NCBI GenBank assembly: GCA_021816885.1 | Contig: JAKAWS010000006.1 | Location: 1 to 60,405, forward strand | Length of the DNA: 60,405 nucleotides | DNA from: Microcaldota archaeon | Lineage (GTDB): Archaea > Micrarchaeota > Micrarchaeia > Micrarchaeales > Micrarchaeaceae | Direction: 5' to 3' | The notes under the pieces: model-generated | The model's database searches: none | Told to the model about the DNA's origin: nothing | Seen by the model: the letters and a program-made list of their open reading frames with translations, nothing else | Position numbers and translations under genes: made by a program | In this document: in pieces, positions 17,676 to 52,320 of the stretch | Layout: every line of letters starts with the position of its first letter | Position numbering within the stretch: position 1 is the first letter of the stretch

Positions 17676-17846
17676 AAGAGTTCGGGATTTGTTGCCACTA
17701 GAATAGTATAAGAGCAGATTTGTAAGATATCATTATCACGGAGCAGTATACCCGTTCTCCCAGCTGGAGGTAAAGATTACATTGGTAGGAACGCCGTTGT
17801 TGCCGTTGCCGCTGTAGTCTTTGGAATTACCATTCAGCGGCCACCA
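17676..17846. repeat. 3' constant block shared by pilin copies A and D
   Basis: These 171 bp, covering the 3' flank and the last 37 or so codons, match 51180-51350 with a single mismatch that I can see. Identity then ends abruptly where the variable domain begins. Confidence 0.85.
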
Positions 17847-18740
17847 CCCAACGAGGTTCTGCAGGTCTATCGGCGCGCCACCGATGCCTTCAGTATAGAG
17901 CGCCTGGATCTCGCCTTTCGAAAGTGTGGCGTTGTAAATCTGGAGATTGGCAATCGATCCATTGTATTGGTATGCGGACTGCAAACCACCATATAGCGAA
18001 CCTACATTGTTGCCTATTGCATAATAGTGTGTGGTGGGGTTGAACTCAGATTGGCCTGTTGTTGAAGAAACAAATTTGCCGTTAACGTAAAATATTACAT
18101 TACCAGTGCCAACCCCTCCATTTGAAAGTGTAACTGTAATAAAGTTTATTGAACCTGCTTTTACGGCCCCTGTACTTGAGTTGGAAAAGTACCAATTTCC
18201 CGAATAACCTTGGTTCCAGAGGTGAATTTCTATTGCACCTGCAGAAGTTACTTCAAGATTCAAAGTAGCATCTGGAATGCCTTCCGAGTATATAAAATTG
18301 CCATTTATAGAGTCTACCCATGCGGATATTGTAAAGCTAGGCAGATTGTTGAGTAACGCTATACTGTTCCCGCTTATATACTCGCCGTTTTGAGTGAATG
18401 ATGCAATGAACTGCGGTATCTCGTTGGTGCATGGACCTATTTCCGATGCGGTGGTGCCAGGGCTGTTCGGCCTTAGTATCTGGCAGCTTCCCGGACTTGC
18501 CTTCGGGGAGAACGTGTAAGGATTGAACACACCGAGGGAGAAGAACGCCACCAAGACTATCGCTAGTATGAGGATCGCCCATCCGTATGTCGTTAGGTAT
18601 TCCATTGCCGACTGTGACTTCAGCCCTATCTTTTTGTCTTTAGAATGAACTATCTTTCGGCGTTGGTTTTCTGGTGTGTGTGTCACGCTTTCAAGGTTCT
18701 GCACCCACTCCGAAACCCGTCCTAACACAATCTCAAACAT
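17736..18740 (-). CDS. LamG-domain type IV pilin-like surface protein, copy A
   Basis: A 334-residue protein with an unusually long charged leader (44 residues) ending KSQSAMEYLTTYGWA, a class III (prepilin) signal peptide. After the hydrophobic helix come the conserved FNPYTFSPKASPGSCQILRPN segment, a variable LamG/concanavalin-A-like jelly roll (FTISAWVDS, YAIGNN, SIANLQIYNATLS) and a constant tail (LVGWWPLNGNSKDYSGNGNN). It should be exported, processed by a prepilin peptidase and assembled or displayed on the surface. The start ATG lies about 28 nt after a TATA-like TTATTAAAA. The leader contains (GT)5 in the sense-antisense repeat at 18674-18683. It is one of four copies in this window. 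Confidence 0.8.
   Translation of the reverse strand: MFEIVLGRVSEWVQNLESVTHTPENQRRKIVHSKDKKIGLKSQSAMEYLTTYGWAILILAIVLVAFFSLGVFNPYTFSPKASPGSCQILRPNSPGTTASEIGPCTNEIPQFIASFTQNGEYISGNSIALLNNLPSFTISAWVDSINGNFIYSEGIPDATLNLEVTSAGAIEIHLWNQGYSGNWYFSNSSTGAVKAGSINFITVTLSNGGVGTGNVIFYVNGKFVSSTTGQSEFNPTTHYYAIGNNVGSLYGGLQSAYQYNGSIANLQIYNATLSKGEIQALYTEGIGGAPIDLQNLVGWWPLNGNSKDYSGNGNNGVPTNVIFTSSWENGYTAP
18674..18683. repeat. (GT)5 tract in the leader of pilin copy A
   Basis: Ten bases of alternating GT on the plus strand encode part of VTHTP in the leader. The same codon position in copy D holds (GT)12. Five units keep copy A in frame. Confidence 0.85.
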
Positions 18741-18793
18741 GTTTCCACTCCATTAATGTGGTAAGAGCTTTTAATAACTGTTTGTTTTTGAAA
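18684..18793. repeat. 5' constant block shared by pilin copies A and D
   Basis: These 110 bp, spanning the promoter and first 19 codons, are identical by reading to 52211-52320. The flanking sequence beyond both blocks is unrelated, so each gene looks like a discrete duplicated unit of about 1.1 kb. Confidence 0.85.
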
Positions 18794-24312: not shown

Positions 24313-24560
24313 GCATGCTACGGTTTGCGCTTTGACACCACGGTATTCTGATACACTCTCGGAAAATTCGACAAAGCCAATATTTTTATACTATTGTTTG
24401 CCATCGTATCACGATGACAATGCAACAGCGCAGGAACGAAGCGAACAACGCTTCATCGTAGATTTCCAAGAGAGAGATAAATAAATTCATCCGGAAAAGG
24501 CGCGACCGGAAACAAATCCTTAAATCATCTGAGTTTGCAACAAAGTATCAAGAACCTTCC
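24313..24560. repeat. 5' block duplicated in front of pilin copies B and C
   Basis: The block starts GCATGCTACGGTTTGCGC and recurs at 26023 with few differences, including the same promoter and long leader. The offset of 1,710 bp indicates a tandem duplication of a unit containing one pilin gene. Confidence 0.8.
24381..24390 (+). promoter_or_regulatory. TATA box of pilin copy B
   Basis: TATTTTTATA lies 24-33 nt before ATG 24414 and is identical to the element at 26091-26100 in front of copy C. Confidence 0.55.
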
Positions 24561-24566
24561 GGGAAA

Positions 24567-25367
24567 GTGTTTCATCAGAAGTCGCAATCTGCGATGGAAT
24601 ATCTGATGACATACGGGTGGGCGATACTCATCATCGCAATTGTGCTGGTGGCGTTCTTCTCACTTAATCTCTTCAACCCATACACATTCGCACCGAAGGC
24701 GAGTCCGGGAAGCTGCCAGATACTAAGACCGAATGGACCGGGCAGCAACCTGTTCGTTTCTGCGGTGGGGCCGACTTGCACCACCAACGAGATACCGCAG
24801 TATGTGGCGCGGTTTAATGGTAGCGGTAGCGGTATAACTGTCCCATCTTCATCTAAAGAAATTTTTGGTAATTCTTCCTTTTCCTCTAGCGGCTACGCTA
24901 CTTGTTTTTTTAATGTTGAGTGGGTTTGTGGTGGAATTACCACAATCGAACCCAATATGTGGCAATTTGTTGCAGTAAGCAATAATCCACCAGCTAATCA
25001 GTTAAACTTATATGTGGGAGAGCAACCTGTTACAGATAATGGTCAAGGCACCAATGCAATCACCATTACTGCATGGATTTATCCTATAACTCATCAAAAT
25101 GACAATATAGTAACATGGCCAATTCTGGGTAATATCTTTAATGGCTCTATCGCAAACATCCAAGTCTACAACACCTCCCTCTCTTCAAGTCAAGTTTTTG
25201 CATTATACTCCGAAGGAATAGGAGGCACGCCAATAGATCTGCAGCATCTCGTCGGCTGGTGGCCACTGAACGGGAACTCGAACGACTACTCCGGAAACGG
25301 CAACAACGGCGTTCCTACCAACGTAATTTTCACCTCCAGCTGGGAGAATGGGTATAGTAGCCCATGA
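24567..25367 (+). CDS. LamG-domain type IV pilin-like surface protein, copy B
   Basis: The 266-residue frame from GTG 24567 begins FHQKSQSAMEYLMTYGWA, a class III signal peptide. It continues with the constant FNPYTFAPKASPGSCQILRPN segment, a variable LamG-like middle (ITITAWIYPIT, SIANIQVYNTSLS) and the constant end (LVGWWPLNGNSNDYSGNGNN). The promoter and long leader of tandem twin C are also present, starting at ATG 24414. Here the leader frame is cut by TAG at 24459-24461 where C has CAG. The gene therefore either starts internally at GTG 24567 or is switched off. The middle domain is shorter and less regular than in the other copies. Confidence 0.65.
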   Translation: MFHQKSQSAMEYLMTYGWAILIIAIVLVAFFSLNLFNPYTFAPKASPGSCQILRPNGPGSNLFVSAVGPTCTTNEIPQYVARFNGSGSGITVPSSSKEIFGNSSFSSSGYATCFFNVEWVCGGITTIEPNMWQFVAVSNNPPANQLNLYVGEQPVTDNGQGTNAITITAWIYPITHQNDNIVTWPILGNIFNGSIANIQVYNTSLSSSQVFALYSEGIGGTPIDLQHLVGWWPLNGNSNDYSGNGNNGVPTNVIFTSSWENGYSSP

Positions 25368-26123: not shown

Positions 26124-27140
26124 ATGACGATGCAACAGCGCAGGAACGAAGCGAACACAACTTCGTCGCAGATTTCCCAGAGAGAGAGAGAGATAAATAA
26201 ATTCATCCGGAAAAGATTCGGCCAGAAACAAATCCTTAAATCATCCGGGTTTGCAACAGGGCATCGAAAACCTTCCGGGAAAGCGTTTCGTCAGAAAGCG
26301 CAATCTGCGATGGAATATCTGATGACATACGGATGGGCGATACTCATCATCGCGATAGTCCTGGTGGCGTTCTTCTCCCTCAACCTCTTCAACCCCTACA
26401 CGTTTTCCCCAAAGGCGAGTCCGGGAAGCTGCCAGATACTAAGACCGAATGGCCCAGGTAGCAACCTGTTTGTGTCGGAGGTCGGATTATGCAACACCAA
26501 CGAGATACCGCAGTATGTGGCGCAGTTTAATGGCGCGGATTATATAAATATGGGAAATGTTGATGATATTACCGGCACACAAATTTCGATTTTTATATGG
26601 AACTATCCGTTTGCAGGTCAATATAGTTATCCAACGCAAGTTTCTAGGAGCGACTATCAATTAGGTTCAAATGAGACTGGTACCGGCACATTTGAAATAC
26701 GTTTTTGTATGCTTAGTGCTTGCCCCTCGACTACTCCGCCAAATACAATTAGTAGTAATACCTGGTCTCAGGTCGGTATTACTTATAATGGTTCAATTGT
26801 GACATTCTATATTAATGGCCATTCCGCAGGAAGTGTATCGGCTTCAGGATCGTTACTACCAGTACCCTCAAATCTAACTATTGGCATAGCAAGGAACCTT
26901 CTTAATCCATTCAGCGGTCAAATCTCAAACGTCCAAATCTACAACACTTCCTTCTCTCCAAGCGCGGTAAATACACTTTATACCGAAGGAATAGGAGGCA
27001 CGCCAATAGATCTGCAGCACCTCGTCGGTTGGTGGCCGCTGAACGGGAACTCGAATGACTACAGCGGCAACGGCAACAACGGCGTTCCTACCAACGTAAT
27101 TTTCACCTCCAGCTGGGAGAACGGGTATAGCAGCCCATGA
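26124..27140 (+). CDS. LamG-domain type IV pilin-like surface protein, copy C
   Basis: A 338-residue protein with a leader of about 60 residues rich in Arg, Lys and Gln, ending RQKAQSAMEYLMTYGWA, which is a class III signal peptide. The constant FNPYTFSPKASPGSCQ segment follows, then a complete LamG-like domain (ISIFIWNYPF, WSQVGITYNGSIVTFYINGH, LTIGIARN, ISNVQIYNTSFS) and the constant C-terminus (LVGWWPLNGNSNDYSGNGNN). The leader includes an (AG)7 run encoding alternating Arg/Glu. The frame is intact, so this copy is probably expressed. It is the downstream member of the B/C tandem. Confidence 0.8.
   Translation: MTMQQRRNEANTTSSQISQREREINKFIRKRFGQKQILKSSGFATGHRKPSGKAFRQKAQSAMEYLMTYGWAILIIAIVLVAFFSLNLFNPYTFSPKASPGSCQILRPNGPGSNLFVSEVGLCNTNEIPQYVAQFNGADYINMGNVDDITGTQISIFIWNYPFAGQYSYPTQVSRSDYQLGSNETGTGTFEIRFCMLSACPSTTPPNTISSNTWSQVGITYNGSIVTFYINGHSAGSVSASGSLLPVPSNLTIGIARNLLNPFSGQISNVQIYNTSFSPSAVNTLYTEGIGGTPIDLQHLVGWWPLNGNSNDYSGNGNNGVPTNVIFTSSWENGYSSP
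26179..26192. repeat. (AG)7 tract in the leader of pilin copy C
   Basis: Seven AG units inside the leader frame. Copy B has four at the same place, a difference of 6 nt that keeps frame. Gain or loss of one unit would shift the frame. Confidence 0.75.
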
Positions 27141-51179: not shown

Positions 51180-51350
51180 AAGAGTTCGGGATTTGTTGCC
51201 ACTAGAATAGTATAAGAGCAGATTTGTAAGATATCATTATCACGGAGCAGTATACCCGTTTTCCCAGCTGGAGGTAAAGATTACATTGGTAGGAACGCCG
51301 TTGTTGCCGTTGCCGCTGTAGTCTTTGGAATTACCATTCAGCGGCCACCA
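51180..51350. repeat. 3' constant block of pilin copy D
   Basis: Matches 17676-17846 of copy A with a single visible mismatch over 171 bp, then diverges at the variable domain. Confidence 0.85.
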
Positions 51351-52118
51351 ACCGACGAGATTCTGAATGTTTGTTGGAGCACCGCCTATTCCTTCCTGGT
51401 AAAGAGCCGTTATTTCTGGTTGTGAGAGCGAGGTGTTGTAGATTTGGACGTTAGAAATCGAGCCGTTAAACCAGCCCACTCCACAATACATTTCACTTCC
51501 TATACAACTCACACCACTCTGGGCTTGGAAAGCATTTGCTGATGCTCCGCTGTTATCAAGTTCAGAATAACCCCCACCATACAAATAGATGTATTTGTTA
51601 TTGCTACTATAATTATATGACCAGACAACAAAGTACCACACATTGTCTGCTAAAGCTTTGTTACTGCCTATATCATCGCCGTAAAATCCGAAATAAAGGC
51701 CATCACTACGTATTACAAGATGCATGCAAGAATTAACATAACATGTTCCCGAAGCATTACTCTCCCCGAAAACTCCAAGGTCACTATAGGTAGTATACTG
51801 TGCAGTATTGGGGCTTTTTATCCATGCTGATACTGTGAAGTTTCTATTAAACAAAGGAACAAACGATGTCAGATCAATCAGGCTGTGGCTGGCAGTAGAA
51901 AATGAACCAACATACTGCGGTATCTCGTTGGTGTTGCATAATCCGACCTCCGACACGAATAGGTTGCTACCCGGCCCGTTCGGCCTTAGTATCTGGCAGC
52001 TTCCAGGACTCGCCTTCGGGGAGAACGTATATGGGTTGAAGAGGTTAAGGGAGAAGAACGCTACCAGCACAATTGCGATGATGAGTATGGCCCATCCGTA
52101 TGTCATCAGATATTCCAT
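51240..52118 (-). CDS. LamG-domain type IV pilin-like surface protein, copy D (currently out of frame)
   Basis: The core frame of 292 residues begins MEYLMTYGWA and has the constant FNPYTFSPKASPGSCQILRPN segment. A LamG-like variable domain follows (FTVSAWIKSPN, DNVWYFVVWSYNY, SISNVQIYNTSLS), then the constant tail (LVGWWPLNGNSKDYSGNGNN). The promoter and promoter-proximal ATG (52267) are identical to copy A, but a (GT)12 tract at 52187-52210 puts that ATG out of frame and it stops at TAG just after the tract. In the core frame, a TGA lies directly upstream of the tract, and no start codon gives the KSQSA signal site. Eleven or fourteen units would restore one frame of about 343 codons. Confidence 0.75.
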   Translation of the reverse strand: MEYLMTYGWAILIIAIVLVAFFSLNLFNPYTFSPKASPGSCQILRPNGPGSNLFVSEVGLCNTNEIPQYVGSFSTASHSLIDLTSFVPLFNRNFTVSAWIKSPNTAQYTTYSDLGVFGESNASGTCYVNSCMHLVIRSDGLYFGFYGDDIGSNKALADNVWYFVVWSYNYSSNNKYIYLYGGGYSELDNSGASANAFQAQSGVSCIGSEMYCGVGWFNGSISNVQIYNTSLSQPEITALYQEGIGGAPTNIQNLVGWWPLNGNSKDYSGNGNNGVPTNVIFTSSWENGYTAP

Positions 52119-52186
52119 CGCAGACTGCGACTTCAGTCCTACCTTTACGTCTTTAGAATGAGCTATTTTTCGGCGTGGGTTTTCTG

Positions 52187-52210
52187 GTGTGTGTGTGTGT
52201 GTGTGTGTGT
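52187..52210. repeat. (GT)12 microsatellite in the leader of pilin copy D
   Basis: Twenty-four bases of pure GT inside the coding leader. Copy A has (GT)5 at the same position and flanks are identical. The 14-nt difference shifts the frame by 2. Frame is kept for 5, 8, 11 or 14 units. Confidence 0.95.
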
Positions 52211-52320
52211 CACGCTTTCAAGGTTCTGCACCCACTCCGAAACCCGTCCTAACACAATCTCAAACATGTTTCCACTCCATTAATGTGGTAAGAGCTTTTA
52301 ATAACTGTTTGTTTTTGAAA
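52211..52320. repeat. 5' constant block of pilin copy D
   Basis: Identical by reading to 18684-18793 over 110 bp, including the TATA-like TTATTAAAA promoter and the first 19 codons from ATG 52267. Confidence 0.85.

Follow-up and report, generated by a model that had tools for sequence, protein, structure and literature searches.

Overall, we believe that the dinucleotide tracts described here are best explained as a multi-gene system in which slipped-strand mispairing turns the translation of surface pilins on and off; we hold this to be very likely, while recognizing that neither a change of tract length within a population nor the expression of any copy has been shown. The window, by which we mean the whole 60,405-nucleotide stretch that was analysed, is contig C16 of a 795-kb Micrarchaeota genome (94% complete), from a group of tiny, acid-loving archaea with small genomes of the DPANN type. 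The original prediction, made from a single pilin gene in this window (copy D), was that slippage in a repeat switches the gene, and phase variation by slippage remains the best reading, supported by tracts throughout the family, by frame states that are close to random, by selection on copies that are off, and by orthologs and paralogs that differ in state. The family-wide pattern, the (AG)/(CT) counterparts, the placement ahead of the peptidase site and the exchange of cassettes at the tract had no part in that prediction.

In copy D, the tract at which we propose slippage lies exactly where it had been placed, at 52187-52210, reading (AC)12 on the coding minus strand and (GT)12 on the plus strand, and it leaves the gene out of frame. 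It is the strongest microsatellite of the window, in which no other dinucleotide tract is equally long; under a first-order Markov model the expected count of (AC|GT)12 is about 3e-11 in the window and about 4e-10 in the genome. The tract starts 57 nt past the first base of an ATG (52265-52267, minus strand) that opens the leader MFEIVLGRVSEWVQNLESV..., and it separates the promoter and start codon from the prepilin-LamG core. An SD-like GGAG (52275-52278) and a TATA-like box, TATTAAAA (52296-52303, 29-36 nt upstream of the ATG), can be read on the same strand, and because both precede the ATG, the (AC)12 of copy D is placed inside a translated leader. It follows the promoter as well as the start codon, as a contingency locus requires. 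A TATA-like box also stands about 35-40 nt before the ATG in other tract genes, and a search for inverted repeats near copies A and D found nothing relevant.

From its ATG, copy D translates as MFEIVLGRVSEWVQNLESVTHTHTHTHQKTHAEK, out of register with the intact core, and at n = 12 this frame terminates, as had been claimed, at a TAG (52163-52165, minus strand) that is the eighth codon after the tract. The claim that a core-frame TGA abuts the repeat needs correction: the core-frame TGA lies 8 nt before the tract (52218-52220, minus strand), and the TGA that abuts it belongs to the third frame. The predicted remedy of 11 or 14 units is arithmetically right, either number restoring a single frame of about 341 or 343 codons, respectively. 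Likewise, the contrast drawn with paralog A holds, the unit counts being 12 in D and 5 in A, and the (AC)5 of copy A (18674-18683, minus strand; ATG at 18738-18740) allows it to read through in one frame.

What the tract precedes in copy D is an intact mature pilin ORF of 295 aa (QSAMEYLMTYGWAIL..., 51240-52127, minus strand), comprising an N-terminal helix and a LamG/ConA-like domain. The core begins KS|QSAMEYLMTYGWAIL, and its junction LKS|QSAMEYL supplies the basic residue, the Q(+1) and the E(+5) of a predicted prepilin-peptidase cut, with a hydrophobic helix next; QSAMEYL is invariant in 13 sequences, and the predicted structure of D has an N-terminal helix at 3-26. Among Pfam models, Laminin_G_3 alone scored on D, and the class III signal model gave no score, the N-terminal motif being short. 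We therefore speak of a putative class III type IV prepilin, an identity that rests on the motif and the modelled helix. The LamG/ConA-like domain is recognized at E 2.4e-14 (PF13385), with pentraxin/ConA-like PDB matches both by sequence and by fold, the latter from a modest model (pLDDT 58). The genome also encodes a prepilin peptidase (PF01478, G000:C13:50598) and two paired copies of the pilus membrane protein T2SSF (PF00482, G000:C1). Since the tract is upstream of the predicted cut, length changes that keep the frame should leave the mature protein unaltered. As a point of gene order, the peptidase gene (G000:C13:50598-50897) is situated about 3 kb upstream of one tract-bearing pilin.

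Copy D is one of a family. With the pilin N-terminus as query, 21 relatives were found in the home genome, six paralogs carrying AC tracts between ATG and core; three of these are in frame, with n = 5 (copy A), 4 and 15, and three out of frame, with n = 12 (copy D), 13 and 15. All four home-genome AC tracts of at least 8 units sit in the leaders of paralogous pilins, at the same position. Within the window, the core of paralog A is encoded at 17736-18614 (minus strand), and the leader of paralog C holds an in-frame (AG)7 (26179-26192, plus strand), the window's only other dinucleotide tract of at least 6 units, ahead of a mature pilin ORF at 26301-27140 (plus strand). Paralog B has (AG)4 in its leader (24469-24476, plus strand), with an in-frame TAG upstream, and its mature part is at 24585-25367 (plus strand). 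That TAG, within 24440-24600, stands where a near-identical paralog (G000:C5) has TGG, and copy B may be off through point mutation, or may start at a GTG nine codons before MEYL.

The arrangement extends well beyond one genome. We counted the bare repeat in 301 genomes of the phylum, 164 of them in the order, restricting genome-wide counts to AC/GT and AG/CT and leaving out homopolymers and longer units. There are 21 AC tracts of at least 8 units, in 8 genomes, the match counts reconciling exactly with tract lengths, and none in the 137 phylum genomes outside the order. Nineteen of the 21 lie directly before ...SQSAMEYLMTYGWAIL pilin cores, and two are cut by contig ends, one with a matching linker (L063, n = 20) and one with a leader like that of a complete copy, L072 (L066). 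In these pilin leaders the coding strand reads AC every time. Such placement has p ~ 2e-16 by chance, even with six independent genera, on the assumption that pilin leaders occupy about 0.24% of a genome (estimated as about 20 genes x 100 nt). AG tracts of at least 7 units behave similarly, 12 of the order's 18 being found in pilin leaders at the position of the AC tracts; two of these 12 read CT in the coding direction, and one, truncated by the end of its contig, follows a matching leader. When one genome per species was searched (84,980 species), AC tracts of at least 6 units joined to the core motif gave 13 stretches, all from this Micrarchaeota group. The trait is nonetheless patchy, since the pilin leaders read in the same-genus genome G001 are plain, short and without tracts. 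A chance microsatellite is ruled out by the census together with the Markov expectation. On a point of labelling, one of the 13 stretches is filed under Marsarchaeota and is the same record as G095.

The general mechanism we propose is as follows. In each member of the family, a TATA promoter and an ATG are followed, inside the first ~20 codons, by an (AC)n or (AG)n/(CT)n tract, and this in turn by a linker, a class III type IV prepilin motif and a variable LamG/ConA-like domain. Replication slippage, which we infer to occur within populations, would alter n; in its favour, archaeal PolB and PolD slip in vitro (PMC4134008), and no MutS or NucS was detected (see below). One third of n values would link the ATG to the core and yield a full prepilin (on), and the remaining values would lead to a stop after a few codons (off), a state in which the absence of protein is likewise inferred. 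The leader, tract included, would then be removed at the predicted peptidase cut, itself an inference, to give the same mature protein. With several paralogs, independently switched and bearing different lectin domains, a single clone might display many surface combinations, and we infer an ecological role in which these could vary host-cell attachment or allow escape from viruses that target pili. A broader proposition, that one Micrarchaeota order practises genome-wide, multi-locus microsatellite phase variation, with convergent AC, AG and CT tracts in the cleaved leaders of lectin-like pilins that double as joints for cassette swaps, we consider evenly balanced between true and false.

The tract might instead serve mainly as a recombination joint for swapping promoter-leader cassettes, with variation in length and frame as a by-product, a possibility that we take seriously but think unlikely. 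Copies A and D, as the original prediction had it for their promoter and first 19 codons, are identical over a 110-bp 5' cassette that includes the start and ends at the tract (52211-52320 in D, 18684-18793 in A, both minus strand), this despite a dS of 1.3 over the first 60 core codons; the linker beyond is 85% identical, and identity also breaks off abruptly at the upstream side of the 110 bp. In L006 an unrelated 5' part is followed by linkers that are 93-97% identical, one copy in G073 joins the 5' part of one paralog to the linker of another, and G110 mixes likewise. These mixtures imply that paralogs trade 5' cassettes, the exchanged part ending at the tract or close to it. Ordinary gene conversion, however, could also yield shared cassettes, and a joint predicts neither placement just behind the ATG nor AC, AG and CT tracts all at the same spot. 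Nor does it exclude switching, as both can hold; cassette exchange complements the slippage switch and does not replace it.

Frame states and selection bear on a second alternative, that the out-of-frame copies are genes that died recently, their leader being dispensable and its repeat a microsatellite without selective effect. Taking the nearest upstream ATG as the start, a rule that is ambiguous in L102, eight of the 21 genes with AC tracts of at least 7 units are in frame and 13 are out (p=0.65 against an expectation of one third), whereas all five with tracts of at most 6 units are in frame (Fisher p=0.04 against the long tracts; small numbers). Unit numbers are the assembly consensus of MAGs, and a consensus cannot show mixed alleles. 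The lack of excess in-frame states among long tracts is compatible with dead genes. So is the repair complement, in that searches of 10 genomes (four of them at least 90% complete; controls positive) for two mismatch-repair routes, MutS and NucS, yielded no match, so that microsatellites may drift. But neutral (AC)>=8 tracts should then turn up elsewhere in these genomes, and none does. Moreover, nearly all off copies retain intact cores of 276-310 aa, and in pairs of home-genome off copies dN/dS is 0.01-0.05 for the first 60 codons and 0.10-0.12 for the C-terminal part, on either side of a lectin domain that is highly diverse. Out-of-frame copies are thus under purifying selection by pairwise paralog dN/dS, values that gene conversion could lower. 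We accordingly disfavour the dead-gene explanation and judge it improbable.

Different states are also observed at one and the same locus. Beside a divergent smc-like gene, the pilin of G038 has 11 units and is off, and its ortholog in the sister species G073 has 8 units and is on, the two loci being about 85% identical upstream. Near-identical paralogs, namely A and D, and L060 and L074, similarly differ in n and in state. The linkers of the latter pair, from G073, also differ by one unit in short tetranucleotide repeats (AAGC/TAGC).

We cannot dismiss outright the idea that the tract does not control expression, translation beginning in the core frame at a rare codon or at the ATG of MEYL, or the ribosome shifting frame within the repeat, but we consider it very improbable. 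Three off genes in relatives (L058, L067 and L068) have a possible in-frame start downstream of the tract, which could permit their expression whatever the tract length; in L004 the core frame contains a GTG upstream of the tract. In contrast, copy D, L008 and most off copies offer no in-frame ATG, GTG or TTG from the last core-frame stop (in D, the TGA at 52218-52220) to MEYL. A start at MEYL would leave out the leader together with the QSA of the predicted peptidase site, and no known slippery signal was recognised. Separately, in L067 and L068 (both G110) a C10 homopolymer follows the AC tract in the leader and precedes the possible in-frame ATG (MRKGCPRTSKIQSAMEYL in L067), which makes a double switch or a bypass start possible.

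An action of the repeat at the DNA or RNA level, through promoter spacing or Z-DNA and not through frame, seems to us highly improbable. Alternating purine-pyrimidine AC tracts can adopt Z-DNA, but that capacity is general knowledge and no result here supports such a role; the tract is downstream of the TATA box and the ATG, which rules out a promoter-spacing switch, and the AG tracts at the same place are not alternating purine-pyrimidine. Scarcely tenable, finally, is a function for the encoded His-Thr or Arg-Glu peptide in the leader, for although HTHTHT does precede the pilin in copies that are in frame, about 60% of the long AC tracts leave their gene out of frame, states that rule out a functional His-Thr leader, and at the same place AG encodes Arg-Glu and CT Leu-Ser, with related pilins lacking the peptide.

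Phase variation by slippage is familiar from textbooks as a property of bacteria that face immune systems or phages. In H. pylori, adhesin paralogs with CT repeats switch independently of one another, and pentamer repeats occupy the signal-peptide region of Neisseria opa genes. Among the closest parallels to the archaeal pilins is the CT-repeat switching of the H. pylori adhesins SabA and OipA (PMC2715451, PMC10564699). There, too, the 5' coding sequence of a surface adhesin, one of several paralogs, contains a dinucleotide tract whose unit number sets the frame, giving in- and out-of-frame alleles. The H. pylori proteins, however, are bacterial outer-membrane proteins, and ours are archaeal prepilins whose tracts are mostly AC and stand before a predicted prepilin-peptidase site; replication and repair machinery also differ in archaea. 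With the simple-sequence contingency loci of Neisseria and Haemophilus (reviewed in PMC11868660) the pilins share translational on/off control by slipped-strand mispairing, a removable leader and a multi-copy surface-protein family, but the repeat units, organisms and protein family are different, and only in those bacteria is switching experimentally proven. Gonococcal pilin undergoes antigenic variation through gene conversion. In both cases type IV pilin paralogs exchange segments; here, though, what is exchanged is a 5' promoter-leader cassette bounded by a repeat and not the variable mature domain. Finally, the haloarchaeal virus phiCh1 shows invertase-driven phase variation (cited in PMC8371274). 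This also is a case of varying adhesion specificity in an archaeal context, but by site-specific inversion in a virus and not by microsatellite slippage in a cellular gene.

Thus the kind of switch is known, and three aspects of it have not been described in the literature searched: its occurrence in the archaeal domain, the family of proteins involved and the exchange of cassettes bounded by a tract. That search, in which subscription journals were mostly not covered, found no archaeal phase variation by simple repeats, and a 2025 review of phase variation (PMC11868660) contains no example from archaea and defers the question of how widespread it is among them to later studies. If the slippage switch is real, the same strategy has arisen in a further domain of life, among organisms that have no animal host, and attachment to host cells or evasion of viruses is then suggested as its driver. 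The concrete loci now available for cheap testing number at least 21 with long AC tracts and 12 with AG/CT tracts. Our results also suggest that discarding out-of-frame pilin genes in archaeal MAGs as pseudogenes is unwarranted.

Two further observations concern the tracts and their surroundings. Contig ends often hold pilin genes or tracts (C1, C5 and C13 of G000; G075:C36, G097:C71 and G130:C46), which suggests that assembly fails at 5' cassettes that are repeated or variable. In addition, at L117 (G024:C15:10850-13850, minus strand) a glycosyltransferase-like ORF, so named by eye from its sequence, is divided into two frames by an (AG)8 at about codon 50, making it a candidate for a second class of switched surface gene in this family.
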